A stretch of 58,005 nucleotides of DNA. Origin: Gammaproteobacteria bacterium (lineage in GTDB: Bacteria; Pseudomonadota; Gammaproteobacteria; JAJPIJ01). The stretch covers positions 1 through 58,005 of the forward strand of contig JAJPIJ010000007.1 of the NCBI GenBank assembly GCA_021324815.1, given 5' to 3'. The translations under genes and the position numbers were made by a program. Positions 19,273 through 41,143 of the stretch are shown piece after piece (position 1 is the first letter of the stretch; every line of letters begins with the position of its first letter). The notes under the pieces were generated by a model that worked only from the letters and a program-made list of their open reading frames with translations, was not told the DNA's origin and did not search any database.

Positions 19273-19689
19273 GTGAAGAAAATCTCAAGTGTCGTGTTAC
19301 TGGTGTTGTTGCAACCCGTGGTCGCGCATGCCGGCAATGACTTCCCGACCGTGGACCGGGTGAACTACGTCCTGGATTGCATGGACCGGCATGGGGAGCA
19401 AAGCATCGAAAACCTGCTGGGCTGTTCATGCACCATTGATGCCATCGCCGGCAAGATGAAGTACGAAAAGTATTCCGACGCCAAAACCTATGAGGAATAC
19501 AAGGACACCCCCGGAGACAAGGGGGACACCTTCCGCACCAACGAAAAGGTCAAGGCCGTTTATAACAAACTCAAGGAACTGGAGGCCGAGGCTGAAAGTC
19601 ATTGTTTTGTAAAGCGCATTACGCCGAAGGCCAAAACCGATGCGGCGGCAGCGCCGGAGAGCAATAAGGCCGCCCAGCCCACCAAATAA
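19273..19689 (+). CDS. Small periplasmic protein next to xoxF, unknown
   Basis: About 138 residues, starting at GTG 19273, which follows GGAGAAATCAAC. A signal peptide (VKKISSVVLLVLLQPVVAHA) precedes the mature start GNDFPTVDRV. The mature part holds YVLDCMDRHG and LGCSCTIDAIAGKM, so three closely spaced cysteines plus a fourth near the end (ESHCFVKR). The pattern suggests disulfides or metal/redox binding. As far as I recall, similar small exported proteins occur beside PQQ-alcohol dehydrogenase genes, but I cannot name the family. It precedes xoxF on the same strand with 553 bp between. Confidence 0.8.
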   Translation: MKKISSVVLLVLLQPVVAHAGNDFPTVDRVNYVLDCMDRHGEQSIENLLGCSCTIDAIAGKMKYEKYSDAKTYEEYKDTPGDKGDTFRTNEKVKAVYNKLKELEAEAESHCFVKRITPKAKTDAAAAPESNKAAQPTK

Positions 19690-19848: not shown

Positions 19849-20242
19849 TCTGGCGCCGTCAATAGGGGACGGCGAGTTGGGAAAATGTCCCGGTCAGAAG
19901 GATGAATTCCTGGTGCAGTATCAGCAACGAGGCGGCGTTCAAAAAATAATTACGATGAGAATAAAGAAATAATGGTTATTTTTCATTGCCCGTATTCCAA
20001 GATTTTTCCCCACCGGCGGCCCGCGCCGGGCAGTGCATATTTTGCTTCACGGATTTTTCACTTGACGATCAGCGCCGCGCCGTGGACTCGGGCGGCGCCG
20101 TTGCATGCAATCTTGACCGGTTCCGAATAGTGGATTCAATTTCCCGCGCCGTTCTTTCTGATCTCGGGGCGGCCGGGGGTGTAAAAGCAAAAATAGAGAT
20201 CAACTTTGGAAACTGTTAACAGTGAAAGTGAAGGAGGAGGTC
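19849..20242 (+). other. Long untranslated leader of xoxF
   Basis: About 390 bases with no convincing gene. An in-frame stretch at 19986-20219 lacks a ribosome-binding site and any recognisable protein features. Early in the leader GGGAC (19866-19870) can pair with GTCCC near 19888. Just before the gene a perfect 12-bp palindrome, ACTGTTAACAGT (20212-20223), is followed by the strong site GGAGGAGG. I do not recognise a known riboswitch. Confidence 0.4.
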
Positions 20243-22102
20243 ATGCTAAAAACATCGTATAAACGATGGTTGGTAGCGGCTCTTTCTTTGGCGGTACCTG
20301 GTGCGGTATTCGCTAATGACAGCGTCGAAAAGCTGACGAATAATCCCAATTACTGGGCTTATCCGGGCGGCAATTACTGGAACTGGCGTTATTCCAAGCT
20401 GGACCAGATCAACACCTCAAACGTAGGCAAGGTCACCATGGCCTGGTCGTTTTCCACCGGCCGCCTGCAGGGTCACGAGGGTGGCCCGCTGGTACTGCCG
20501 GGCGAGGCCACCGGCCGCAAGGGTGACACCCTGTACATCCACTCCGCGTTCCCGAACGACGTGTTCGCCATCGACCTCGACAGCCTCGAGATCGTGTGGG
20601 AATACGATCCGGTGCAGGAGGAGAGCGTGCAGGGCGTGCTCTGCTGCGACAACGTCAACCGTGGCCTGGGCTATGGCAACGGGATGATCTTCCTGCAGCA
20701 GAACGACACCATGCTGGTTGCCCTCAAGGCCGACAACGGCCAAAAGGTGTGGGAAACCAAGAATGGCGAGCCCAAGATGGGCCAGACCAACACCAATGCC
20801 CCGCATGTGATGAAGGACAAGGTGTTCACCGGCATGTCCGGCGCGGAGTTTGGCGTGCGTTGCTCCATGAGCGCGTATGACATCAACAGCGGCAAGCTGG
20901 TATGGCGTGCCTACAGCATGGGCCCGGACAGCGACATCCTGTTCGACCCGGCCAAGACCACGTCCATGCTGCAACCCGTGGGTCCCAATTCTTCGCTGAA
21001 GACCTGGAAGGGTGACCAGTGGAAGATTGGCGGCGGCTCGGTGTGGGGCTGGTGGCCGTATGACAAGGCGCAGAACCTGATGTTCTACGGCTCCGGCAAT
21101 CCGTCCACCTGGAACCCGGTGGTGCGTCCCGGCGACAACAAGTGGTCGATGACCATTTTTGCGCGTGACGTTGACACCGGCATGGCCAAGTGGGCCTATC
21201 AGATGACGCCGCACGATGAGTGGGACTATGACGGCGTCAATGAAATGGTCCTGTGGGACGGCAAGGTCAAGGGCAAGGAGCGCAAGGCCCTGAGTCACTT
21301 CGACCGCAACGGCTTCGGCTACACGCTGGACCGCACCACCGGCGAACTGCTGGTGGCCGAGAAGTATGACCCGGCCGTCAACTGGGCGACCCATGTCGAC
21401 ATGAAGACCGGCCGTCCACAGGTGGTTGCCTCCAAGTCGACCCATAGCGGCGGTGAGGATGTCGTCTCCAAGGACATCTGCCCGGCCGCTCTGGGTACCA
21501 AGGACCAGCAGCCGTCCTCGTATGATCCGGACACGGGTCTGTTCTATGTGCCGACCAATCACGTTTGCATGACGTACGAGCCTGTTTCCAACCCGCTGTA
21601 TGAGGCTGGCAAGCCCTACGTGTTTGCGAACCTGACGATGTACCCCGCCGGCAAGGCGTGCCCCGGCAAGGAGTGCGGCAACAACGACACCAACGACAAC
21701 ATGGGCAACTTCATCGCCTGGGATCCGGGCCAGGGCAAGATCGTCTGGTCCATCCCCGAGAAGTGGTCGGTGTGGAGTGGCGTGTTGACCACCAAGGGTG
21801 GTCTGGCGTTCTACGGCACGTTGGAAGGCTGGGAGAAGGCGGTTGACGTCAAGTCCGGCAAGCTGCTGTGGAAGTTCAAGACGGCGTCCGGCATCATCGG
21901 CAACACCAACACCTGGATGCACAACGGCAAGCAGTATCTCGGCGTGCTGTCCGGCATCGGTGGCTGGGCCGGCGCGGTGGTGGCCTTCCGCAAGGAGAAC
22001 ACGGCGCCTGACGAATGGGCGCTGGGTGCCGCGGGTGGCTATCGCGCCCTCAAGAGCGTCACCAAGAACGGTGGCGTGCTGAACGTCTTCTCACTGCCGT
22101 AA
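20243..22102 (+). CDS. xoxF: Lanthanide-dependent methanol dehydrogenase XoxF
   Basis: A periplasmic PQQ enzyme that oxidises methanol (and often formaldehyde), passing electrons to a soluble carrier. Of 619 residues, the first 24 or so are a signal peptide ending VPGAVFA. The eight-bladed propeller carries vicinal cysteines Cys134-Cys135 (GVLCCDNVN), which cover PQQ. The motif [11 protein letters not shown] gives catalytic Asp328 and the extra Asp330 that coordinates a lanthanide. Calcium-type MxaF has Ala at that second place, so this is XoxF. The ATG at 20243 has GGAGGAGG three bases upstream. It does not read like a typical XoxF5, and I leave the clade open. A strong terminator follows, so it is transcribed alone. 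Confidence 0.96.
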
Positions 22103-22371: not shown

Positions 22372-22803
22372 ATGAAAAAATTTTTAGTGGGCCTGATGTC
22401 GTTGGGTGCGTTGCTGTCGGTGAGCGCCGCCGGGGCGGCGGAGGTGGTTGTCAATGCGACGGTGCGCTCCTTTGACCCGGATATCGTTCAGATTCAACCG
22501 GGTGACAAGGTGGTATGGCGCAACATGAATTCCCACAGCACCACGTCGATAGCCGGCATGATCCCGGACGGAGCCACGGCCTGGAACTCCAAGCTGGGCG
22601 AGGATTTTGCGATAACCCTCGACAAGCCGGGTGCGTATGTCTATACCTGCACGCCGCACGCCTCCTTCGGCATGGGCGGTGTGATCATCGTCGGCAGCGG
22701 CAAGCCAGCCAATCTGGACGCCCTGAAGGCGGCGACCGACAACAACGGCAAGCGCTGGGTCAAAAAGCTCGAACGTTATCTGGACGAGAAGGGCATCAAG
22801 TAA
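22372..22803 (+). CDS. Pseudoazurin-like blue copper protein
   Basis: A 143-residue periplasmic cupredoxin with a signal peptide (residues 1-23). Type 1 copper ligands can be assigned to His55 (NMNSHSTTS), Cys93, His96 and Met101 (CTPHASFGMGG). The Cys-x2-His-x4-Met spacing and the motif GMIPDGATAWNSK match pseudoazurin rather than amicyanin. A helical C-terminal tail of about 30 residues follows. It should carry single electrons in the periplasm. It sits between xoxF and xoxJ, where methylotrophs usually have the cytochrome c gene xoxG; no CxxCH protein is encoded in this region. It may therefore be the electron acceptor of XoxF (inferred). The ATG follows GGAGAGAG, and the gene has its own terminator. 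Confidence 0.93.
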   Translation: MKKFLVGLMSLGALLSVSAAGAAEVVVNATVRSFDPDIVQIQPGDKVVWRNMNSHSTTSIAGMIPDGATAWNSKLGEDFAITLDKPGAYVYTCTPHASFGMGGVIIVGSGKPANLDALKAATDNNGKRWVKKLERYLDEKGIK

Positions 22804-22876: not shown

Positions 22877-22968
22877 GACGCTGATCAACGCCTGCTGAAG
22901 GTACAATGGGTCCCCGCCGCCGGATCTGATGGCGAGCGGGCGATTTAAACGCTGGGAGGATTGTGCCC

Positions 22969-23925
22969 ATGAATGGTAGCAGCGAGAAGAAATCCAAGGT
23001 ATGGCCGTGGATCCTGTCCCTGGGCTTGGGGGTGATGGCCTGCGTCACGGCGAATGGCCTGCGCGCCGAGGAGGAAAGCACGCCGCCGCGCACGGCGCTC
23101 AAGGTATGCGGCGATCCCAACGCCATGCCGGCGTCCAATGACAAGATGGAGGGCTTCGAGAACAAGATCGCCAAATTATTCGCCGACAGCCTCGGATTGC
23201 CGCTTCAGTATTACTGGTTCCCGCAGCGATTCAAATTCATCCGCAACACCCTCAAAAACAACAAGACGCCGGATGGGTCGTATCAGTGTGATCTGGTCAT
23301 CAGCGTTCCCGAGCATTTCGACATGGCCGCGACCACGCAACCGTATTATCACTCCACCTGGGCGATGGTGTACGTCAAGGGCCGGGGGCTGGATGACGTC
23401 AAATCCCAGGAGGACCTCATCAATCTGCCGCCGGAGCGCAAGAAGAATCTGCGGATTGGATTGTACGATGTCGGGCCGGCCACCGAATGGGCGTACCGAC
23501 ACGGCCTGCTTGATTACATGGTGCCCTATCAGCACATGACGGCCGATGTGCAGGATTATCCGGGCCGCATCATCGAGCAGGATCTGGTGCAGGACAAGAT
23601 CAATGTCACCTTTGAATGGGGGCCCATCGCCGGATACTACGCCAAGAAAATCAAAAATCCGGAACTGGTGGTGATCCCCATGAAATCGGAACCCGGCATC
23701 AAGTTCGATTTCCGGTTTACCATGGCCACGCGTTTTGGCGAGAAGGCCTGGAAGCAGCAGGTCAACGATTTCATCACCCGGCATCGCGATGACATCCGCG
23801 CGATACTGGCTGAGTACGGTGTCCCGCTGGTGGAGGATGGCGGCGACAAGGCCGGTGATGAGGGCGGGGACAAGCAAAAGCCGGGCGGAGATCACAAGGG
23901 CAAAGGCAGGAAAGGTCGGAGGTGA
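22969..23925 (+). CDS. xoxJ: XoxJ/MxaJ-like periplasmic binding protein
   Basis: A 318-residue protein with a signal peptide (WPWILSLGLGVMACVTANG) and the fold of solute-binding protein family 3. Characteristic is the beginning of the mature part, LKVCGDPNAMPASNDKMEGF, and then QCDLVISVPEHFD. XoxJ and MxaJ are thought to help methanol dehydrogenase mature or become activated. The ATG at 22969 is eight bases from GGGAGGA; a GTG at 22963 is less well spaced. The C-terminus ends in a Gly/Lys/Asp-rich tail after about residue 290, unusual for the family. Its stop overlaps the ribosome-binding site of the next gene, so the two form an operon. Confidence 0.9.
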   Translation: MNGSSEKKSKVWPWILSLGLGVMACVTANGLRAEEESTPPRTALKVCGDPNAMPASNDKMEGFENKIAKLFADSLGLPLQYYWFPQRFKFIRNTLKNNKTPDGSYQCDLVISVPEHFDMAATTQPYYHSTWAMVYVKGRGLDDVKSQEDLINLPPERKKNLRIGLYDVGPATEWAYRHGLLDYMVPYQHMTADVQDYPGRIIEQDLVQDKINVTFEWGPIAGYYAKKIKNPELVVIPMKSEPGIKFDFRFTMATRFGEKAWKQQVNDFITRHRDDIRAILAEYGVPLVEDGGDKAGDEGGDKQKPGGDHKGKGRKGRR

Positions 23926-23933
23926 TGAAAACC

Positions 23934-24812
23934 ATGATGCCCAACGTCAAATATGAATTTCATGCTTTTCTTGTCCGGCTCAAGAGTACGGTGGCCGGCT
24001 GCCTCGTGAGCATCCTCATGCTTGGAGGGGCGGTCGTGGCGGCGGAGGATTCCTCACCCCCCCCGGCCGCGGCGCCGGGCGGTGATTCGGTGGAGAAAAT
24101 GCCGAACGTCGACAAGGAGGGCAGGATGGATCCGGACGCTCTCGCGCACATCGGGCGCGTGGGCGATTCCATGGAAAGCGAAAACGTGAAGCTCTCCGAC
24201 GCCGAGACGCTGCTGTGGATGACCGACCATCTCAAGAACATCAAAACGCCGACGGTGCTCAGGTATCACTTCAAAAAGCAGGGGACCTTCGAGGAGGGTT
24301 TCGAGGATAACGTGGAATTTCGCATCAAGGAAATCAAGCCCGACGGCATGAAGGCGGGCGAGGTCAGCTGGTTCAGCGGCGAACGCAATCATTACGTGCC
24401 GCCCTATGACGGGATCAGCGGCAATCCGGTGCTGGGCATATACCTGCAGGGCGACGTGCTGGAGATGAACCGGATTACGGAAGGGTACTGGCGCTATTTC
24501 CACCGTTTGATCAAGCAAGCCTTCGCGAACAGCGCCGAAATCAAGCCGGTGTCGATTTCATTCAACGGCAAGACGGTGCAGGGCAAGCAGGTGCGGATCA
24601 CGCCGTACCTGAAGGATCCCCATACCTTCGGCAACGAGACCTTCAAAAAACTGGAAAACAAGGAATACCTCATCACCGTCTGTGACGAAATTCCCGGCTA
24701 TCTATACGAAATCCATACGGTAGTGCCGGCCCCGGAGGACGCCAGCGACAAGTCCAAGCCGTTGATTGACGAGTCCCTGGTGCTGGTGTCCGCGGAGCAG
24801 GCTGCCCGTTGA
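23934..24812 (+). CDS. Unknown periplasmic protein in operon with xoxJ
   Basis: About 292 residues. The start is uncertain: GGAGGTGAT, a perfect anti-Shine-Dalgarno match, overlaps the xoxJ stop and favours the ATG at 23934; ATG at 23925 is also possible. A signal-peptide-like segment (AGCLVSILMLGGAVVAA) is followed by a Pro/Gly-rich linker and then a globular region of about 230 residues with SDAETLLWMTDHLKNI, RYHFKKQGTFEEGF and YLITVCDEIPGYLYEIH. It has no heme motif, no membrane helix beyond the leader and a single mature cysteine. I do not recognise the family. Its operon position makes it a candidate accessory factor for XoxF, for example in assembly or lanthanide handling; that is inference only. 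Confidence 0.85.
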   Translation: MMPNVKYEFHAFLVRLKSTVAGCLVSILMLGGAVVAAEDSSPPPAAAPGGDSVEKMPNVDKEGRMDPDALAHIGRVGDSMESENVKLSDAETLLWMTDHLKNIKTPTVLRYHFKKQGTFEEGFEDNVEFRIKEIKPDGMKAGEVSWFSGERNHYVPPYDGISGNPVLGIYLQGDVLEMNRITEGYWRYFHRLIKQAFANSAEIKPVSISFNGKTVQGKQVRITPYLKDPHTFGNETFKKLENKEYLITVCDEIPGYLYEIHTVVPAPEDASDKSKPLIDESLVLVSAEQAAR

Positions 24813-29683: not shown

Positions 29684-30514
29684 TCAGTAGGGGTAGGAGG
29701 CGCGGAGGATCATGAGCTCGCCCTTGCCGCCGGTGGCCAGATCGCCGCAATACCTGTCGCATAGCGGCCCGCGTCCCCTGAGTTCCGGAAGATTGGGATA
29801 CTCGCGCGTCAAATGATGAAACAGGATGCGCAAAAACTGCATCTTCAGTATTCCACAGTAGTTGAACGAGGCCGGCAGCCGCTCCGGTTTGCGGATCAGG
29901 ATCACGGTGCCGCGTCTCATCCCGGCGCCGGCAAAATCCCCGGCATTTCCGAACACCACGATGGTGCCGGCCAGCATCCGCGCGCCGCAGTAATCGCCGG
30001 TGTCGCCCTTGACGACGACAATGCCGCGTCGCATGCGGTCGCCGACGCGCATTCCGGCATTTCCGGCAATCAGTATGGTGCCGCCGTCCATGCCGTGGGC
30101 GTCGCCCGGCAGCCCGCCGCCGACTTGATTGCCGGCGCAGCCGCGGACTTCAATCCGGCCGCCGTGCATGTTCGCGCCGAGCCAGTCGCCCGCGTCGCCG
30201 TGGACCATGATTCGTCCGCCGCGCATGGCCGCGCCCAGTTGATGACCGACGCGGCCGCGCACGGTGATGACACCGGCAGCCATTGCCGCGCCGATGCCGT
30301 CGAACTTTCCAAGATCGCCGCGCAATTGCAACTGGCTCGCATCCCCGCCGCTCAACGAGAAAAGATCGCCCACCTTCACCTTGCGATTGCCGCACTGCAA
30401 TCTGATTGCCGCGATGGCGCTGCGGCGCATCCCTGATAGTCGGTCCGGAATCAACGCGGAAAGTTCCACGCGCTGTGACGGCGGTTCCTTCAGGGTGAGT
30501 GTGAGTGGCTTCAT
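29684..30514 (-). CDS. fhcC: Formyltransferase/hydrolase complex subunit C
   Basis: A 276-residue protein with the right-handed beta-helix of glutamate synthase alpha/FwdC type, seen as repeated Gly-x-x-Gly steps: GGRIMVHGDAGDWLGANMHG, GGTILIAGNAGMRVGDRM, RGIVVVKGDTGDYCGARM. In the Fhc complex it is a structural scaffold. Its start overlaps the fhcD stop (ATGA), which implies translational coupling. It is the paralogue of the gene at 36376-37197. Confidence 0.93.
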   Translation of the reverse strand: MKPLTLTLKEPPSQRVELSALIPDRLSGMRRSAIAAIRLQCGNRKVKVGDLFSLSGGDASQLQLRGDLGKFDGIGAAMAAGVITVRGRVGHQLGAAMRGGRIMVHGDAGDWLGANMHGGRIEVRGCAGNQVGGGLPGDAHGMDGGTILIAGNAGMRVGDRMRRGIVVVKGDTGDYCGARMLAGTIVVFGNAGDFAGAGMRRGTVILIRKPERLPASFNYCGILKMQFLRILFHHLTREYPNLPELRGRGPLCDRYCGDLATGGKGELMILRASYPY

Positions 30515-31410
30515 TTGAGAATTTTGTGCAGGTGAAAGTGGTGGGGACCGAGCTTGCCGCCGTAATGACCGGCGCTGATCCGGTAGATGCCCCGCCGGGG
30601 TCCGAACGAGCACGTCACCTCGATGCCGGTGCGCATGGCCTCCGTAATCGCGTCCTTGTCCAGCCCGTCGATCACGATCTCCAGCACCGATCCGACTTTT
30701 TCGGAAAGCGCGGAATCCGGAACCCTGCCCTTGAGCGTGGGGCAATAGAGATGGTTGGTCGAGGTGTTCATGAACTTGTATTTGGAGCCCACCTTCGAGC
30801 CGGAGCCCACCACGCCCCCCGGGAACGGCGTCACCGCGCCGCGCACCTTTTTCATCGCCTTGACGGCCTTCTCGCAGGCGGCGAGTCCGTGGCGCGAACT
30901 CTTGGCGAATACCAGAAAATTGCCGCCGCCGATGGCGTCGGTGACGCCGGTGCTTTCCTCGCACATGAATTCGCCGTGCATCACCGGCACGCGCCAGTAG
31001 CGCGTGCCGTCCACCAGCTTGGAAATCTGGTAGCCGTCGCCGAAGAAACGCAGGCTTTTGCCGAGCGGGATGCGATCGGCGGTGTGCAGCCCGGAGTAAC
31101 AGGCGGCGGTGGCGGTGGTCATGACGGACTGGCCGACGCGCTTCAGCACCTGTTCCGCGAGCTGCCTGGTGGAGGTGGCGAAGATGAGCACGGAAATGCC
31201 GGGCCGGCCGTCGGGGGTATGGCGCTCGTTGATCTCGTACTCTATGCCCGCCTCGCAGCCGCAGCCGATGATGGAGGAGGCGAATCCCGTCAGGGAGTTC
31301 GCCGCCCGGTAGGCCCATTTGTACGACATGGCGGTGATGATGAGGCGCGTCGCCTTCATGGGAAACGCCTCGGCGAAGGTGTTGTCTATTTCCACGCCGT
31401 TGATCTTCAT
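30511..31410 (-). CDS. fhcD: Formyl-methanofuran:H4MPT formyltransferase (Fhc subunit D)
   Basis: A 299-residue Ftr-family protein. It transfers the formyl group from N5-formyl-H4MPT to methanofuran or methylofuran. Family motifs include INGVEIDNTFAEAFPMKATR, TGFASSIIGCGCEAGIE and GDGYQISKLVDGTRYWRVPV. It overlaps fhcA upstream and fhcC downstream by four bases each. The second Ftr at 37194-38102 keeps all of these blocks but differs in many residues, so the two copies are old paralogues or have separate origins. Confidence 0.95.
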   Translation of the reverse strand: MKINGVEIDNTFAEAFPMKATRLIITAMSYKWAYRAANSLTGFASSIIGCGCEAGIEYEINERHTPDGRPGISVLIFATSTRQLAEQVLKRVGQSVMTTATAACYSGLHTADRIPLGKSLRFFGDGYQISKLVDGTRYWRVPVMHGEFMCEESTGVTDAIGGGNFLVFAKSSRHGLAACEKAVKAMKKVRGAVTPFPGGVVGSGSKVGSKYKFMNTSTNHLYCPTLKGRVPDSALSEKVGSVLEIVIDGLDKDAITEAMRTGIEVTCSFGPRRGIYRISAGHYGGKLGPHHFHLHKILK

Positions 31411-33068
31411 GCCGCGCGCCCCCGATGCACGATGAGACGCCCGCGGCCGTCGTTTTCGATCTCGGCGTCACTGAGGCGGAAGTTGTCCAGTCGCATCGTC
31501 ATGTAACGATCAAAGTATTCACGCAGGGATTTCTCGATGCCCCTGTCATAAGCGGGGCGCAGCGTGTGGGTGGCGCCGTCGACGACCCTGGTGATGCGGC
31601 CGTTTTTCACCACGAGCTCGCCATCCTTGAAGACATAGTCCGGTTTTTCGAACATGCGCTGCCGGTCGGCATGCGGCGTGTACACGGTAATGTCGGCCGC
31701 GGCGCCCGCGCCCAGGTGGCCGCGATCGGTCAACCCCAGGCTTTTCGCGGGGGCGGCGCGCGTCATGATGGCGATTTCATACAGTGAGTATTCACGGGTG
31801 AGACTTCCCAGCGTCGACATTTTCTGCGCGTCGGGGTGCAGCGTCGCAAAACATTCGTTGCGGAAGCTTCTGTCCATCAACAGCCGGATCAGATGCGGGT
31901 AGCTCGTAAACGGCGCGCCATTGGGATGATCCGTGGTCAGGAAGACGCGCCAGGGATCATCGACAAGCAGGAAGATCTCCAGACCGATGGCCCATTGCAG
32001 GGCATTGACGAATTTCTGATGGCGGTAGCGGAACGGCACCACGCCGCAGCCCGCGTCGCACTCGATGTCCATGCACACCCATTTTTTGGGATGGGCGTGG
32101 GCATGGTTCCGGTACTGCGCCATGCTGTCGCCGGAGGCGGTGACGGTCTGGCCGAACATGATCTGGCCCACGTCCACGGAGATGTTGGGGTTGCGGTTCA
32201 CCGCCCCGGCGATGCGGGCGGCCCCGGAGGAGAATTTCCGGTCGCCCTCGGTGCCGTAGCTGTGGAACTGGATGTGGGTCAGATGCAGCGGCAGACCTTC
32301 GACGCCGGCGATGGTTTTCAGCGTTGTCTCGACGTTGCCCGGGACGCCCAGGTTGCAGCCGTGCACATGCAGTGGGTGCGGCACGCCAAGTTCATGGACA
32401 GCGCGCGCCAGTGTGTGCAGGATCTGTCGCGGCGTCACGCCGTAATGGGCGTGCTTCTCATCCAGATCGAGGCTGCGCTGGTTGAACTTGAAGGCGCTGA
32501 TGCCGCCGGGGTTGACCACTTTGACGGCCAGCGCCTGCGCCGCGGTGATGGTGAAGGCGACGTAGTCGTTGATTTCGCGCTGGCTTTTCCCGGCGGCCAG
32601 CATGCGCAGCAGAAAATCATCCGAGCCCAGCATCACGTAGGCGCCCTTGTCGATGATGGGGATATCGGCCATTTCCATGTGCGCCTGGCGGGCGTTGGCC
32701 GGCAGCATGGCCGGCTCGAAACAGGCCGTGTAGCCCATCTCCGCGTAGCGATAGCCGGTGGCCTGCGTCGAGGGCGCCGCATGTCCCACGCCGGAACGAG
32801 TAATCGTGGTGCGCGGCACGGGGTCCGGCCGGTGGTCCTCGGGCAGGAGGGCGCGGGCGATATTGACCTTGCCGCCGCCGATATGGGTGTGCGGATCGAT
32901 GGCCCCCGCCATCACCACCTTGCCGCGCAAATCAAGATTGACGGCCGCGGTTTCCGGATCCGCGGGCGGCGGCGCGATGCGGCCGTCGCGAATGTAGATG
33001 TCGCGTTGCTCGCCATTCACGCCGTTCATGGGGTCGTAAACGGTGCCGCCTGACAATCTGGTGAGCAT
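31407..33068 (-). CDS. fhcA: Formyltransferase/hydrolase complex subunit A
   Basis: A 553-residue amidohydrolase of the FwdA/FmdA family that splits formyl-methanofuran to formate. The dinuclear metal site can be read: His60 and His62 (AIDPHTHIGGG), the candidate carboxylated Lys in AVKVVNPGG, His in HPLHVHGCNLG and LTHIQFHSYG, and Asp in FLTTDHPNG. It starts 13 bp after fhcB. This copy belongs to the hydrolytic cluster that continues into formate dehydrogenase. Confidence 0.95.
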   Translation of the reverse strand: MLTRLSGGTVYDPMNGVNGEQRDIYIRDGRIAPPPADPETAAVNLDLRGKVVMAGAIDPHTHIGGGKVNIARALLPEDHRPDPVPRTTITRSGVGHAAPSTQATGYRYAEMGYTACFEPAMLPANARQAHMEMADIPIIDKGAYVMLGSDDFLLRMLAAGKSQREINDYVAFTITAAQALAVKVVNPGGISAFKFNQRSLDLDEKHAHYGVTPRQILHTLARAVHELGVPHPLHVHGCNLGVPGNVETTLKTIAGVEGLPLHLTHIQFHSYGTEGDRKFSSGAARIAGAVNRNPNISVDVGQIMFGQTVTASGDSMAQYRNHAHAHPKKWVCMDIECDAGCGVVPFRYRHQKFVNALQWAIGLEIFLLVDDPWRVFLTTDHPNGAPFTSYPHLIRLLMDRSFRNECFATLHPDAQKMSTLGSLTREYSLYEIAIMTRAAPAKSLGLTDRGHLGAGAAADITVYTPHADRQRMFEKPDYVFKDGELVVKNGRITRVVDGATHTLRPAYDRGIEKSLREYFDRYMTMRLDNFRLSDAEIENDGRGRLIVHRGRAA

Positions 33069-33081
33069 GCGCGGGCGGACC

Positions 33082-34383
33082 TCAGAGAAGTTTCAGCAGC
33101 ATTTGCATGACCATGGCCGCGCTGGGCAGCGTGGTGTCCCGGAGCTTGCGCAGCGGCAGCGACACCACGGTGTCCACCCGGCACATCTGGCCCGCGTGAT
33201 CGACGCCCGGCACCCCCACCGGAATGTACACGGAATAAACGCGATCGAATTCCTCCGGGGGAGGCGTCAGGAGAATCGTGGGGATGGCGGATTGCGGCGG
33301 GCGGATGGCGGGATCGAAACTGGAAATCCACAGCAGGGCGTCCACCTCGCCGTTTGCCAGCAGTCGGCCGGTGGCGTTGCGGACGGGATCGAACTCCGGA
33401 TGGCCCGGGCCGAAATTCACGCGCAACTGGTAGCCGCTCTGCCATGTGCAAACCGCGCCGGCGGTGGCCGCGGCTTCATTGCCGCCCAGCGCCAGGCCCG
33501 AGCAGCGGGTGAATTGGTTCAGCTCCTTGATGAATTCACAAAGACCGGCGATGGTGATGTCCGCCGCGGGAAAATCGAGCCGCGGCGGCGACCAGACGAT
33601 GACGGGGTATTTTGCGGCCTTGAGCCTGCTGACCAGCCTGTTCACCTCGCGGGTCCTGACGCCGGCCACGGTTTTTGCCTGCAGGGGATTGCCGGCGAGC
33701 GCCGCCCGGGCGGCGGAAATGATCTCCCCCAGGCGTTGCGGATCATTTTTGAGATGCCATGGCTGGCGCCCCTGCGGACTCACGCCGGCGCCGGCGTCGA
33801 GGCCGCGGCCGAGATAGATGATCTCGCGCCCGCCGGTGTCCAGATCGAACATCGACTCCTTGTTCCAGACGAAGCGTTCGAAGAAGCGCGGATGGTCCGA
33901 GATCACGTCCGTGCCGGCGAAAACGATGAGATCGGCGCGATTGCGCAGCTCGGAGAGCGTCGTCATCATCCAGCCCCGATCCTGCATGGCGAGGACATTG
34001 CGATAGATGCCGTCGCCCAGCATGTGATCGACGATGCCCCCGGTGCGATCGGCCAGCGCCAGCGCGGCGCGCATGCCGTCGACATCGGTCGCCAGGCCGC
34101 CGAACAGCGGCTGGCGGGAGGACTTCAGCAGCTTCGCGGCGGTCGTGATCGCCTCGTGCAGATCGACCTCCACGCCGTCCACGCGCGCAGACGCCGGCGG
34201 CGAGGGGCGCTCAAAACCGGTCACGGCGCGCGGACAACGCACCGATTCGACGCGCAACCTGCCGTGCCTGCTTTCGATGTTCATGTCATCGCACAGCAGG
34301 CTGCAAAACGGGCAGGTGACGGACTTGAAAGACCGCCGCGCGGCGGATGGAGACCGCGAATCTTGAACAGTTTCGGTCATCAT
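33082..34383 (-). CDS. fhcB: Formyltransferase/hydrolase complex subunit B (no metal-ligand Cys)
   Basis: About 433 residues, FwdB/FmdB-like. The start is one of two adjacent ATGs (34383 or 34380), neither with a good ribosome-binding site. It keeps an N-terminal iron-sulfur pattern, Cys24-Cys27-Cys31-Cys50 (CPFCSLLCDDM). At the position where archaeal FwdB has the Mo/W-ligand Cys, this protein reads VDHMLGDGIYRNV, with Gly at about 125. It therefore should not bind an active pterin metal centre, as known for the hydrolytic Fhc complex of methylotrophs. The paralogue at 39803-41143 does keep the ligand. A 280-bp gap separates it from the reductase gene upstream and may hold its promoter. Confidence 0.92.
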   Translation of the reverse strand: MMTETVQDSRSPSAARRSFKSVTCPFCSLLCDDMNIESRHGRLRVESVRCPRAVTGFERPSPPASARVDGVEVDLHEAITTAAKLLKSSRQPLFGGLATDVDGMRAALALADRTGGIVDHMLGDGIYRNVLAMQDRGWMMTTLSELRNRADLIVFAGTDVISDHPRFFERFVWNKESMFDLDTGGREIIYLGRGLDAGAGVSPQGRQPWHLKNDPQRLGEIISAARAALAGNPLQAKTVAGVRTREVNRLVSRLKAAKYPVIVWSPPRLDFPAADITIAGLCEFIKELNQFTRCSGLALGGNEAAATAGAVCTWQSGYQLRVNFGPGHPEFDPVRNATGRLLANGEVDALLWISSFDPAIRPPQSAIPTILLTPPPEEFDRVYSVYIPVGVPGVDHAGQMCRVDTVVSLPLRKLRDTTLPSAAMVMQMLLKLL

Positions 34384-34663
34384 CTGTGTGAATGTGAATG
34401 GATAGAAGGGCTGGCCGCGGACAACGGTATGGCTTGGTTTCAAGCCTGCACACTTATCCTGCGGCGCAAAAATTAACATGGAACGGCCACTCCCGCCAAA
34501 CTTTTCATGAATTGCGGGGACCCGATTTGCAATCAAGCCCTTGACAGGCTTGAAGCGCCGTGATTGGCGTGAATTTCATCCCCGGCCTGCACGGCTTCGT
34601 GCCGGCGGAGGCTGCGGGGGTTGTCAAGTGATGCCTGAACAGCGGCGGCCCCACGCCGTTGAT

Positions 34664-36375: not shown

Positions 36376-37197
36376 TTATGAAAGCTTCTGGCGGTTGAGC
36401 AGCAGTATCTCGCCGCGGTTCAATTCCACCGAGTCACCGCTGTAGCGCCGGTATTCCCCCTCGATCCAGGCGTCCTCGACGGCCATGCCGAGTTCGCGCA
36501 GGTACAACAGGTACAATCGCAGGTACACCGGCCGGTAGTCGCAGTCGTAGCTGAAGGTGGGCAGCAGTTCCGCCGGCTGCATGGAAACGATGGAGCCGCG
36601 CACCATGCCCGCGCCGCTGCGCCAGCCGAGACCGCCCAGCGCCATGATCGTGCCGGCGCGCATGTTGACGCCGGTGAAATCGCCGCTGTTGCCCCCGATC
36701 GCGATGAGGCCGTTGCGCATGCCGTTGCCGGTTTCGTTGCCGGCGTTGCCGTGAATGATGATCTCGCCGCCGCGCATGCCGATGGTGCCGCCGCGGTGCG
36801 CGCTGCCCACCATGTGGCCCGCATTGCCGGTGATGATGATCCTGCCGCCCAACATCTCCGGACCGACCCAGTCGCCGGCGTTGCCCTTGACAAGGATCTC
36901 GCCGCCGATCATCGCCGATCCCAGGTGCATGCCGGCGTTGCCGTGAATGACGAGCCGCCCGCGGCTCATGCCGGCGCCGAGATATTTCACCCTGCCGAGA
37001 TCGCCTTCCAGATGGACCTCCCCATTGGCCCTGCCCGACACCTTGAAAAAATCCCCGACGGCCGCCTTTTCATTGCCGTGGAGGAGGGGCAATGCCGCGA
37101 TGTCGGATTCACTCAAATCCGCGACGCGGTCGAACGTCAGCGCCTCGGCCTCCATCGGCACCTGCGGCGCGACGCGCAATGCCAGGGTCAGGCTCAT
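36376..37197 (-). CDS. fwdC: Formylmethanofuran dehydrogenase subunit C
   Basis: A 273-residue FwdC-type beta-helix protein with regular Gly-rich turns: RGRLVIHGNAGMHLGSAMIG, GGEILVKGNAGDWVGPEM, GGEIIIHGNAGNETGNGM. Its start overlaps the ftr stop (ATGA). It is the counterpart of fhcC at 29684-30514 but belongs to the operon with fwdB and fwdD. The scaffold fits either a hydrolase or a dehydrogenase complex, so the label follows the operon partners. Confidence 0.88.
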   Translation of the reverse strand: MSLTLALRVAPQVPMEAEALTFDRVADLSESDIAALPLLHGNEKAAVGDFFKVSGRANGEVHLEGDLGRVKYLGAGMSRGRLVIHGNAGMHLGSAMIGGEILVKGNAGDWVGPEMLGGRIIITGNAGHMVGSAHRGGTIGMRGGEIIIHGNAGNETGNGMRNGLIAIGGNSGDFTGVNMRAGTIMALGGLGWRSGAGMVRGSIVSMQPAELLPTFSYDCDYRPVYLRLYLLYLRELGMAVEDAWIEGEYRRYSGDSVELNRGEILLLNRQKLS

Positions 37198-38102
37198 GCC
37201 ACGGCCGCCGGCGCCGCCGCGATCAGATCGCGCAGCGCAATCTTGTACTGCCCCAGGTTGCCGCCGTAGTTGCCGGCGGAGATCTGCACCAGGTTCTGCC
37301 GCGCGGCGGCCTCCAACCCCGCGCGCATGGCGTTTTCGACGGCGGCAAGATCGAGTCCGTCGATGACGATCTCCAGGACGCAACGAACGCCGGCGGGCAG
37401 TTGTGTCCCGTTGGCGAAACCGCGCAATGTGGGGCAGTAGGCGTCGTTCGTGGACGCCATGAGCGATTTGTATCTGGAACCCGGCTTGCTGCCGCTGCGC
37501 ACCACGCCATCGGGAAACGGCAGAATGGCGCCGGGCACCTTCCGCATCGCCGCCACCGCGGCCTCCGCCGCCTTCAGCGTGGCGGCGGCGTCCGGGCCGC
37601 ACAACAGCAGGTTGCCGCCGCCAACGGCGGGCTGGATGCCGAAGCGCTCGTCGATGACGAATTCGCCGTCCATCACCGGAATGCGCCACAGCCGGCGGCC
37701 GTTGAGCACCTTGGAGATTTGATAACCGTCGCCGAAGTATCGCAGCAGGCCGCCAACCACGACCGTCTGTTCCGCAGGCAGGCCGTTGTAGCAGGCGGTG
37801 GTGGGGCAGGTGAGCACGCACTGGCCGATGCGCTCCACCAGCCGCTTGCCGACGCTTTCGGCGCTGGTGGAGAACAGCAGCACGCTGATGCCCGGGCGTC
37901 GATCGGGCGTCTCCTCCGCCGGGACCTCGCGCTCGATGCCCGCCTCGCATTTGCAGCCGATCACCGAGGTGGCGAAGCCCGTCACCGACCGCGCCGCGGC
38001 CAGCGCCCATGCCGGCGTCTCGGCGGTGATGACGATCCGCGTCCCCCACATCGCAAAGGCCTCGGCGAAGGTGTCAATGATGTCGGTGGATCCCAAACGC
38101 AT
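37194..38102 (-). CDS. ftr: Second formyl-methanofuran:H4MPT formyltransferase
   Basis: A 302-residue Ftr-family protein with IIDTFAEAFAMWGTRIVITA, TGFATSVIGCKCEAGIE and FGDGYQISKVLNGRRLWR. It would move the formyl group between H4MPT and methanofuran for the FwdABCD complex. It lies between fwdA and fwdC, the same order as in the fhc cluster (A-D-C), which implies that one cluster arose by duplication or that both came from a common source. In archaea ftr is usually not inside the fwd operon, so the arrangement is of bacterial style. Confidence 0.93.
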   Translation of the reverse strand: MRLGSTDIIDTFAEAFAMWGTRIVITAETPAWALAAARSVTGFATSVIGCKCEAGIEREVPAEETPDRRPGISVLLFSTSAESVGKRLVERIGQCVLTCPTTACYNGLPAEQTVVVGGLLRYFGDGYQISKVLNGRRLWRIPVMDGEFVIDERFGIQPAVGGGNLLLCGPDAAATLKAAEAAVAAMRKVPGAILPFPDGVVRSGSKPGSRYKSLMASTNDAYCPTLRGFANGTQLPAGVRCVLEIVIDGLDLAAVENAMRAGLEAAARQNLVQISAGNYGGNLGQYKIALRDLIAAAPAAVA

Positions 38103-38105
38103 GAC

Positions 38106-39758
38106 TTACACCGCCGCCTTGACCGGCGGGACGATCTCGTGGTGGTGCAGGTAGCTGTCCGCCACCGGATAGTTGGCGAATTCGATGGAGTAATAATCGT
38201 CGAAGAAGGGGTGCAGCTTTTGCTCAATCGCCGCATCGTAGGCCGGCGCCACGTGCAGCAGGCGGCCCTCGTGATCGGTCCGGAATTCATAATCCGCGAT
38301 GATCATGCGGCCATCCTTGATGACGTAGCGCGGGGCGTTGAACATGCGCTCCTTGTCGGCGTTCTCCTCGTAGATGGTGATGTCGGCGTCGGCGCCGGCG
38401 CCCAGGTGGCCCTTGTGCTTCAAGCCCAGCGCCCGCGCGGGGGCGGCGCGCGTGATGATGGCGATCTCGTTCAGCGTATACTGCCGGTCGAGGTTGTCGA
38501 GCAGCACCGTCTTCTTGATCGCCCGCGGGTTGACCTTTTGGATCTCCTCGTTGCGGAAATCGCGGTCCATGAGCAGCCGGATGAGGCGCGGGTACTTCAG
38601 GAAGGAGCCGCCATTCGGGTGATCGGTCGACAGCATGATGCGCCAGGGATCCTTCGACAGCAGGAACAACTCCAGCCCGATGGCCCATTGCAGGGCATGC
38701 ACGTACACCTTCTCCTGGTAGGTGAACGGCACGATGCCGCAGCCGCTCTCGCATTCGACATCGGCGTTGATCCACTTGTTGTGACTGATGTTGCGCAGCA
38801 TGTAGCCGAGCGGGGCGTCGGCGGTCATGGCGGTGGCCTTGCCGAACATCACCTGCCCCACGTCGGTGGTGATGTTGGGATGCGTGTTGATGTACTCGGC
38901 AATCTCGGGGCCTTTCGACGTCGGGTTTTTCCCCGGCTCGCCGCCGTAGCTGTGGAACTGGATGTGGGCCATGTGCAGGCGGCTTTCGCCCGCCGTGCGC
39001 ATCGTCTCCAGGGTCGTCTGCCAGTTGCCGCTGTGACCGAGGTTGTTGCAATGGATGTGCACGGGGTGCGGCAGGCCGAGCTCCTCGACGACGTCGATGA
39101 AACTGCGGATGATCTGGCGCGGGGTGAGATCGATGCCCGTGCCGGTCTGATCGATGCTGGAGATGTTGGTGTTGCGCTGCCCCTTCCACAGCTCGTCCGC
39201 GCCGGGGTTGACCAGCTTGACGGCATAGGCCTTGGCGGCGTTGATCCACCAGGCCACCGCGTTGCGGAATTCCTCCCTGCGGCCCTCCCGCAGCAGGCGG
39301 TGCAGGAACACGTTGTTGGCCAGCAGGACGTAGAAACCCTTGTCGATGACGGGCGTATCGTGCAGCTCCTCCAGCACGTGGCGGGCGGCCAATGGTGGAA
39401 CGGCGGCCTCCATGGCCGTGGTGTAACCGAGCGCCGCGTAACGATAGCCCGTCGCGAAGGTCGACGGCACGATGCCGCCGGTGCCGGATCGCGTCACCGC
39501 CGTGCTCGGGTGCGGATCGCGGCGGTGGTCCTCGGGCTGCAGTTTGCGCGCGAGATTCACCTTGGCGCCGGCGATGTGGCAGTGGATGTCGACGCCGCCA
39601 GGCAGGATCGCCATGCCATTGACGTCCAGGCGGGGCGCGTCCTGCGGCAGGCTGGCGACGATCCTGCCGTCGCTGATGCAGATGTCCCGCACCTCGCCGT
39701 CAATGCCGTTGGCGGGGTCGTAAACCCTGCCGTTGACGATGCGAAGTGTGTCTGGCAT
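38106..39758 (-). CDS. fwdA: Formylmethanofuran dehydrogenase subunit A
   Basis: A 550-residue amidohydrolase-type subunit. It has His59 and His61 (GVDIHCHIAGAK), a Lys in AVKLVNPGADE, His in HPVHIHCNNLG and MAHIQFHSYGG, and Asp in MLSTDHPNGG. These give a complete dinuclear metal site. In archaeal Fwd, FwdA hydrolyses formylmethanofuran to formate, which tunnels to the FwdBD active site. It starts 44 bp after fwdB and ends three bases before ftr. It is clearly divergent from fhcA at 31407-33068 over the whole length. Confidence 0.93.
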   Translation of the reverse strand: MPDTLRIVNGRVYDPANGIDGEVRDICISDGRIVASLPQDAPRLDVNGMAILPGGVDIHCHIAGAKVNLARKLQPEDHRRDPHPSTAVTRSGTGGIVPSTFATGYRYAALGYTTAMEAAVPPLAARHVLEELHDTPVIDKGFYVLLANNVFLHRLLREGRREEFRNAVAWWINAAKAYAVKLVNPGADELWKGQRNTNISSIDQTGTGIDLTPRQIIRSFIDVVEELGLPHPVHIHCNNLGHSGNWQTTLETMRTAGESRLHMAHIQFHSYGGEPGKNPTSKGPEIAEYINTHPNITTDVGQVMFGKATAMTADAPLGYMLRNISHNKWINADVECESGCGIVPFTYQEKVYVHALQWAIGLELFLLSKDPWRIMLSTDHPNGGSFLKYPRLIRLLMDRDFRNEEIQKVNPRAIKKTVLLDNLDRQYTLNEIAIITRAAPARALGLKHKGHLGAGADADITIYEENADKERMFNAPRYVIKDGRMIIADYEFRTDHEGRLLHVAPAYDAAIEQKLHPFFDDYYSIEFANYPVADSYLHHHEIVPPVKAAV

Positions 39759-39802
39759 GACGATGGACGGATTTTATTGTTGTTATGGGAACGGCGGCGT
39801 GT

Positions 39803-41143
39803 TCAGGCTGCTTTGCGGGCTTCCTTCGGCTTGGCCTTTTTGTTCAGCAACTCACGCACGCGGTTTTTGATGGCCGTCAATACTTCCTGATCGCTCGGGT
39901 AAGGCGATTCGAAGGCGGGGCGCAGGGTGATCGGCACGTCGTCCATACGGTAGACGGTGCCGCCGACGTTGATGCCGTAAGTGGCGGTGCAAAAGGCCAC
40001 GCGCGCCAGTTTGCCGGTCTCCGTGGCCTTGGGGTCCAGGGCGATCACGGGGATGCGGTGCAGGTGCTCGATCGCCGCCTTCGGGAAATTGGCGGCGGGA
40101 TCGCTGGCGATGATGAGCGCGGCGTCGGCGTCGCCGCGGGACAGCGTGTCCACGGTGGTGAATTCGCCGGGATTGAAGCGCGGATAGCCGCGGCTTAAGT
40201 TCACGCCGAACGGATACCCCGTGGTCCAGGACACGACGTTGTCGGCGCCGGTGACGTTGCCGTGCCCGCGCACGGGCTTGGCCACGAAGTGGGTGAACTC
40301 GTTCAGGTCGGTGGCGAGCGCGAGCAGGGCGCCGGAGTTGAAATGCCGCCCGCGGGTCATGGTCAGTCCCATGCCGAAGAACAGCACGCCATAGCGGCAG
40401 GTCTTCATGCGCTCCACGAGCTGCTTCATCGTATCCAGCTTGACGCCGGTGCGCTCCTCCACCGACGGATCCAGCCGCCGGCCCCTGACCAGCGCCCGCA
40501 GCGCCCACAGCAGTTCGAAATCCGCGCCCGGCTTCACCTGGATGAACAAGTTGGCGACGGGGGTGCTCTGCGTGCGGCGCACGTCCACGGACACGATGTA
40601 GCGATCCTTCTTGCCGTTGGGGATATACATGCCCTTGGTGGTGACGGCATAGCGGCTGAACAGGCGCGGGTGCGCCTCGCCCGGATTGCCGCCCCAGAAG
40701 ATCACGAGATCAGCGCGGTTCTTGACCTCGCCCAGCGTCATCGTGCTTTCGCCGACGCCCTGAAAGGCGATGCCGGAGGGGCCGTGGCAGACGGAGGTGG
40801 TGGTGTCGATGGTGCCGTGGATCAGGTCGCCGATGGCCAGCGCCTCGCGCTGCGCCTCGCAGGTCGTGTCACTCAGGCCGTAGATGATCGGGAAACGCGC
40901 GTTGACCAGGATGCGGGCGGCCTCCTCGACCGCTTCATCCACGCCGACCTCCCTGCCGTCGATGGTCGCCGCCGGGCGGTTTTCAATCGTGTGCTCCGCG
41001 AACCAGGCCTTGCCCAGCACGCAGGCGTTCTCGGCCTTGGTGATGCAATGCTTGTCCAGGTCCACCGTCAGATTCATGTCGTCGCACACGCAGCCGCAGA
41101 AGGTGCAGGTGGCGTGTTCGACGGTGCGGATGTTTTCTGCCAT
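39803..41143 (-). CDS. fwdB: Formylmethanofuran dehydrogenase subunit B with intact Mo/W ligand
   Basis: A 446-residue protein, about the length of archaeal FwdB/FmdB. The N-terminal [4Fe-4S] site is Cys13-Cys16-Cys20-Cys41 (CTFCGCVCDDM). Residues 113-123 read DTTTSVCHGPS, so Cys119 falls where Methanothermobacter FwdB has its tungsten-ligand Cys. Further molybdopterin-fold blocks (VIFWGGNPGEAHPRLFSRY, VISVDVRRTQSTPVA) are present. The fhcB protein in this window lacks the Cys and the CHGP motif. Together with fwdD this indicates a redox-active enzyme oxidising formate (from formylmethanofuran) to CO2, or the reverse. The ATG at 41143 follows GAGG by seven bases. Confidence 0.93.
   Translation of the reverse strand: MAENIRTVEHATCTFCGCVCDDMNLTVDLDKHCITKAENACVLGKAWFAEHTIENRPAATIDGREVGVDEAVEEAARILVNARFPIIYGLSDTTCEAQREALAIGDLIHGTIDTTTSVCHGPSGIAFQGVGESTMTLGEVKNRADLVIFWGGNPGEAHPRLFSRYAVTTKGMYIPNGKKDRYIVSVDVRRTQSTPVANLFIQVKPGADFELLWALRALVRGRRLDPSVEERTGVKLDTMKQLVERMKTCRYGVLFFGMGLTMTRGRHFNSGALLALATDLNEFTHFVAKPVRGHGNVTGADNVVSWTTGYPFGVNLSRGYPRFNPGEFTTVDTLSRGDADAALIIASDPAANFPKAAIEHLHRIPVIALDPKATETGKLARVAFCTATYGINVGGTVYRMDDVPITLRPAFESPYPSDQEVLTAIKNRVRELLNKKAKPKEARKAA

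Follow-up and report, generated by a model that had tools for sequence, protein, structure and literature searches.

The window (the whole stretch of DNA analysed here, 58,005 nucleotides) carries the gene under study behind a set of xox genes. The features are listed below; the names Orf6 and Orf7 are explained further on.

19273-19689, forward strand: Orf6-family gene, small exported protein with four invariant cysteines (a longer ORF is listed from 19183)
20222-22102, forward strand: xoxF, PQQ methanol dehydrogenase, WDYDG motif present
22372-22803, forward strand: cupredoxin of the plastocyanin/pseudoazurin type, in the slot occupied by the xoxG cytochrome in other clusters
22963-23925, forward strand: xoxJ (TIGR03871, 263 bits versus a cut-off of 212)
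23918-23926, forward strand: ribosome-binding site GGAGGTGAT, overlapping the xoxJ stop codon
23934-24812, forward strand: gene of the Orf7-family protein, predicted to be periplasmic, 292 aa (ATG 23934, TGA 24810-24812)
Parts of the Orf7-family protein (residues): N-terminal helix/signal, about 1-35; variable linker, 36-85; conserved core, predicted to be LolA-like, 86-290

The order upstream of the Orf7-family gene is thus Orf6-family gene, xoxF, cupredoxin, xoxJ, and the WDYDG motif of XoxF is what we take to be the lanthanide signature. No XoxG-type gene was found in the window; the cupredoxin in the xoxG slot, together with cupredoxins at 20 of the 32 loci from the class, suggests that the electron acceptor of XoxF is a copper protein. 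On the 3' side, formate dehydrogenase-type genes (named by eye) lie on the opposite strand, with relatives in the same place at other loci. Two apparent fhc sets (formyltransferase/hydrolase, H4MPT pathway), also recognized by eye, occupy 29684-34536 and 36376-41143 of the reverse strand, one adjoining the formate dehydrogenase-type genes and the other separate, an apparent duplication.

The 292-residue open reading frame with an export-type N-terminus is present as originally predicted, and so is the perfect GGAGGTGAT site, which spans the xoxJ stop codon (TGA 23923-23925), lies 7 nt 5' of the ATG, and is the only copy in the whole window (chance expectation, 0.43). The gene had also been said to start inside the xoxJ stop region; this is true of the ribosome-binding site, which lies over the stop, but not of the start codon, which is 8 nt downstream of it. 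Among the in-frame candidates, 23934 is the best-spaced start, GTG 23922 and ATG 23925 (the latter overlapping the xoxJ stop) being too near the GGAGG. Comparison with a relative from the same genus gives a dN/dS of 0.133 for the entire Orf7-family gene and 0.067 for its core, versus 0.107 for xoxJ; the gene is under purifying selection, with constraint similar to that on xoxJ. Since dN/dS is low and homologues are found in other classes, 23934-24812 is a real gene.

The protein has no match in Pfam, NCBIfam (0 families), or the PDB sequences, and the same three collections yielded nothing significant when searched with 28 homologues or with relatives from the alpha and beta groups; weak single matches (Phage_Coat_A, 0.22; DUF5105, 0.017) were taken as chance. 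Hence, the statement that it belongs to no recognized family holds for Pfam, NCBIfam, and, by sequence, PDB. Of the HMM and structure-based searches suggested at the time, the former thus gave no curated family; the latter gives a fold of the LolA/RseB/LprG type, with matches of middling strength. The AlphaFold2 model, built from 26 sequences, has a pLDDT of 86 overall and of 91-98 in ten-residue blocks across residues 91-290. The best PDB matches by Foldseek are LprG, LolA3, and a LolA-superfamily protein (E from 5e-5 to 4e-4, TM about 0.28), and a second aligner retrieves MucB/RseB and LolA-type proteins (Z up to 9.2, rmsd 4.1 A over 138 residues); that other fold families are missing from these lists carries no evidential weight. 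The core is therefore predicted to be a LolA/RseB-like half-barrel with helices, and only the fold class is claimed because of the low TM-scores. In the model, the strongly conserved stretch N164 ... Q172-D174 ... Y188-F189 falls within the pair of helices after the first sheet and immediately ahead of them. The LolA, RseB, and LolB profiles of Pfam and NCBIfam match none of 28 Orf7-family members, and thus we call the family LolA-like by fold and not a member of LolA.

The distribution of the family was studied in draws of 369 genomes from the class and 398 from the phylum, which overlap (G000 is in both). A first search found the family in six out of 56 relatives, the window's own genome counted, the other five proteins being 43-81% identical. 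A profile built from these six sequences detects it in 32 out of 369 class genomes, and a profile of 28 sequences in 17 out of 398 phylum genomes, 12 of these in another class. A scan of named genomes gave 26 Orf7-family loci, all in MAGs except for one isolate, Methylohalomonas lacus. Copies are also present in plasmid records, including those of Azoarcus sp. KH32C, Roseomonas marmotae, Paroceanicella profunda, Candidatus Thiodictyon syntrophicum, Caballeronia sp., and Sinorhizobium, where they are labelled "hypothetical protein" wherever annotated. Two public MAG records titled Klebsiella pneumoniae (loci L082 and L088) carry this xox gene, and their gene content suggests mislabelled environmental MAGs.

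The family is closely tied to XoxJ, whose presence was scored as a TIGR03871 match above its cut-off. XoxJ is present in 36 out of 369 class genomes and 40 out of 398 phylum genomes, and the Orf7 family shares a genome with it in 31 out of 32 cases in the class and in all 17 in the phylum sample (Fisher p of 9e-39 and 3e-19, respectively, with relatedness ignored). The lone exception, G202, is a contig-edge fragment from a genome that is 64% complete. In each of three taxonomic families (f3, f75, f92), one genome has both XoxJ and the Orf7 family, and another has neither. The reverse dependence is looser: XoxJ is found without the Orf7 family in five out of 36 class genomes and 23 out of 40 phylum genomes, and a relaxed profile search of about 14 kb around xoxJ revealed no diverged copy in these five class genomes. 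The rule that the Orf7 family is lost only with XoxJ was accordingly rejected; the family is a frequent, not an obligatory, companion of XoxJ. At one locus (L139, genome G031), an ordinary-looking lolA-type gene, recognized by eye, lies past an ftsK-type gene after xoxJ; we take this as coincidence.

The tie extends to gene order. At all 28 class loci with xoxJ on the stretch read (out of 32 loci in total), xoxJ is immediately upstream on the same strand, within 200 nt at 26 of them and at 317 and 602 nt at the other two, the distances being measured to where the profile match begins and not to a verified start codon. Three of the remaining four loci are at or near contig ends, and the fourth, L065, has xoxJ about 6 kb off. 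In Azoarcus sp. KH32C, the order is xoxF, cytochrome c, xoxJ, Orf7 family, Orf6-like, quinoprotein relay zinc hydrolase 2, SoxYZ-like carrier; Roseomonas marmotae is a second named case of linkage between the Orf7 family and xox. We also observed that the Azoarcus Orf7-Orf6 pair (L128, 9962-12699) runs directly into the quinoprotein relay genes (zinc metallohydrolase 2, SoxYZ-like carrier), and that the family has similar neighbours in Paroceanicella.

By acceptor, the class loci comprise 20 out of 32 with a cupredoxin, seven with an XoxG-type cytochrome, and five with neither on the stretch read. Thus, the family is not limited to cupredoxin-type xox clusters, co-occurrence with which had been proposed as a check, and its specificity to such clusters was rejected. 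The shared task with XoxJ and XoxF that had been suggested is, on the other hand, supported by co-occurrence, by conserved adjacency, and by the deletion phenotypes published for orf7, the putative AM1 orthologue (PMC7391723). Homologues that are common among non-methylotrophs and serve a different role, which the original prediction had named as the observation that would speak against it, were not seen, as the G202 fragment is the only occurrence among the sampled genomes without XoxJ. As a separate observation, clusters C8, C20, C19, C22, C29, and C32 are found repeatedly in the vicinity of xox loci of the cytochrome type (L111, L117, L059, L062, L063, and others).

Clustering of neighbours revealed a recurring partner, the small exported protein with four invariant cysteines referred to here as the Orf6 family. 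Of the 369 class genomes, 33 encode it, and every one of these also has XoxJ. It is present in 29 out of the 32 class genomes bearing the Orf7 family, the exceptions (G011, G073, G202) being 64-78% complete. In the second class, it directly follows the Orf7-family gene at all 13 loci (L115-L126 and L135), with anything from a 20 nt overlap to a 176 nt gap between the two genes. The model of Orf6 is helical (pLDDT 82) and matched none of the solved folds searched (best E 3.0), nor is there a significant match in Pfam or NCBIfam; a match of BRANT (0.0022) to the N-terminus of one Orf6 was taken as chance.

The second class also provides the link to a known gene. There the Orf7-family gene follows pqqE at six out of 12 loci and, additionally, at L135; at L121 (genome G495), there is a 4 nt overlap with the pqqE stop, and the PqqE encoded there aligns with PDB 6c8v over 375 residues (807 bits). 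A search of 40 genomes of one genus with the XoxJ of PDB 6onp, which we take to be from Methylorubrum extorquens AM1, found a 98% identical XoxJ in G772, the genome of L135. The order at this locus is xoxF, xoxG, xoxJ, followed on the opposite strand by folK, folB, folP, an Orf6-type gene, the Orf7 family, pqqE, pqqCD, and pqqB, the fol genes being recognized by eye. In the AM1 study, META1p1740-1742 are xoxF1-G-J, 1746 is orf6, 1747 is orf7, and 1748-1750 are pqqE-CD-B (PMC7391723); L135 has the same gene count and order as META1p1740-1750, with exactly three places left for the fol genes. From this match in gene order, we infer that the family of the window protein is Orf7 and the small protein Orf6. 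The class alignment matches the L135 copy with an hhalign probability of 99.8% over 192 columns, and a profile of class sequences matches genomes of genus g358 at 1e-36 to 1e-42. Synteny and the 24% profile identity to the L135 copy, compared in place of the AM1 protein sequence itself, point to orthology with AM1 Orf7, although the window has the xoxJ-linked order, unlike the pqqE-linked order of L135. The orf7 of the H4MPT pathway (mch-orf5-orf7-fae; PMC3615186) is a different gene under the same name.

In AM1, orf6 and orf7 emerged when transposon mutants were selected for having lost XoxF1 function (Roszczenko-Jasinska et al., 2020; PMC7391723). On methanol with La3+, the orf7 deletion mutant shows a 9 h lag and grows at 0.08/h, the orf6 mutant, with its harsher phenotype, at 0.03/h, and the wild type at 0.16/h, compared with a 6-9 h lag and 0.07/h for xoxF1 and a 6 h lag and 0.04/h for xoxF1 xoxF2 (PMC7391723). 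These figures for orf7 therefore resemble loss of XoxF1. The requirement for orf6 and orf7 is reported there only with La3+, with no function named by the authors, whereas the PQQ genes are required with and without La3+ (PMC7391723). Since the need for orf7 is limited to La3+, the phenotype argues for a step concerning XoxF rather than general PQQ supply.

Taking all this into account, the link of the Orf7 family to XoxF is strong, while the exact step is one that we infer: the protein is probably a XoxF-specific periplasmic maturation chaperone or carrier acting with XoxJ and Orf6. It would be made in step with XoxJ and would act in the periplasm beside XoxJ and the small Orf6, presumably in a complex, holding a client during XoxF maturation; the putative client is apo-XoxF, kept competent for insertion while XoxJ presents the open enzyme. 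XoxJ has been proposed to bind the apo-dehydrogenase in a partly folded state while PQQ and metal are inserted (PMC12997753). Deletion of orf7 slows growth without abolishing it (PMC7391723), which counts against this reading, as does the occurrence of XoxJ in genomes lacking the family, and the shared LolA-like fold alone indicates no function. More tentatively, Orf7 (LolA-like) and Orf6 (four-cysteine, helical) might be a hitherto unrecognized, widely conserved two-protein module that, with XoxJ, forms a dedicated machine inserting PQQ and the lanthanide into XoxF; if so, a half-barrel chaperone has been repurposed for metallo-quinoprotein assembly.

Other roles are conceivable, with lower probability. 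The overlap with the pqqE stop at L121 and the position after pqqE at other loci, as well as the ability of LolA-type proteins to hold ligands in a pocket, would suit a carrier that takes exported PQQ and delivers it to apo-XoxF while XoxJ keeps the enzyme open. We consider this unlikely. PQQ is polar. A carrier for general supply is also disfavoured by the La3+-only effect of orf7 loss, given that the PQQ genes are needed under both conditions (PMC7391723). A periplasmic protein handling lanthanide or metal and helping to load XoxF would agree with the La3+-specific phenotype (PMC7391723) and with the restriction of the family to XoxJ genomes, one fragment aside. Yet the invariant columns contain neither a Cys/His cluster nor an acidic run. 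Nor is the LolA-like fold known for harbouring metal sites, and we find such a role quite unlikely. A helper acting where XoxF meets its electron acceptor, be it a cupredoxin or an XoxG cytochrome, much as has been suggested for MxaD with MxaFI, seems very unlikely: the gene does sit in a dehydrogenase/acceptor cluster at most class loci, and an MxaD homologue, META1p1771, shows a phenotype only with La3+ in the screen that also yielded orf7 (PMC7391723), but the family tracks no single acceptor. Finally, a stress or envelope protein of the RseB/LolA type, linked to xox by operon history with no direct role for XoxF, is hardly probable at all, since, despite its fold neighbours RseB, LolA, and LprG, the presence of the family tracks XoxJ inside f3, f75, and f92. 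We retain the XoxF-specific maturation chaperone or carrier as the preferred reading.

An accessory factor of a PQQ methanol dehydrogenase is, as a kind, already in print, and so is AM1 orf7 as one member. Literature searches for META1p1746/1747, or for orf6/orf7 in the xox setting, found PMC7391723 alone; among the papers listed for xoxF with LolA, or for xoxJ with pqqE, operon, or conserved hypothetical, none concerned the Orf7-family protein, and the available portions of PMC12997753, PMC10875860, and PMC13108547 give no account of it. As far as these searches show, what is new is that the family spans three proteobacterial classes (NCBI lineage) and is tied almost exclusively to XoxJ, that orf6 and orf7 pair up as a module, that the gene can be coupled to xoxJ, and that its product is predicted to have a LolA-like fold. 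An orphan gene behind xoxJ is thereby tied to a genetic hit of 2020 that previously had no family, fold, or phylogenetic context, and orf7 and its partner orf6 are shown to be part of the xox system in Gamma-, Beta-, and Alphaproteobacteria alike. This bears on how lanthanide methanol dehydrogenases acquire PQQ and metal, would justify naming two families now annotated "hypothetical protein," and, through the predicted fold, points to direct binding tests.

Compared with known systems, the window protein shares with M. extorquens AM1 Orf7 (META1p1747) the profile family, as seen in close AM1 relatives, the Orf6 partner, the xox/pqq surroundings, and export; it differs in its place, after xoxJ and not after pqqE as in AM1-like genomes, in its identity of about 24% to the AM1-like L135 copy, and in its longer linker. 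With the LolA/RseB/LprG half-barrel superfamily it has in common the predicted fold of residues 87-292 and, presumably, the periplasmic location, but it has an extra N-terminal linker, is linked to xox and not to lol or rse, and matches no Pfam LolA or RseB profile. XoxJ/MxaJ share its operon and presumably its task in dehydrogenase maturation; however, XoxJ is of the periplasmic solute-binding-protein type (SBP_bac_3, TIGR03871), whereas the Orf7-family protein matches neither TIGR03871 nor TIGR03870. Similarly, MxaD and its homologue META1p1771 resemble Orf7 as an accessory protein with a La3+-only phenotype (PMC7391723), but the Orf7-family protein has no match to the Pfam SRPBCC/MxaD profile.
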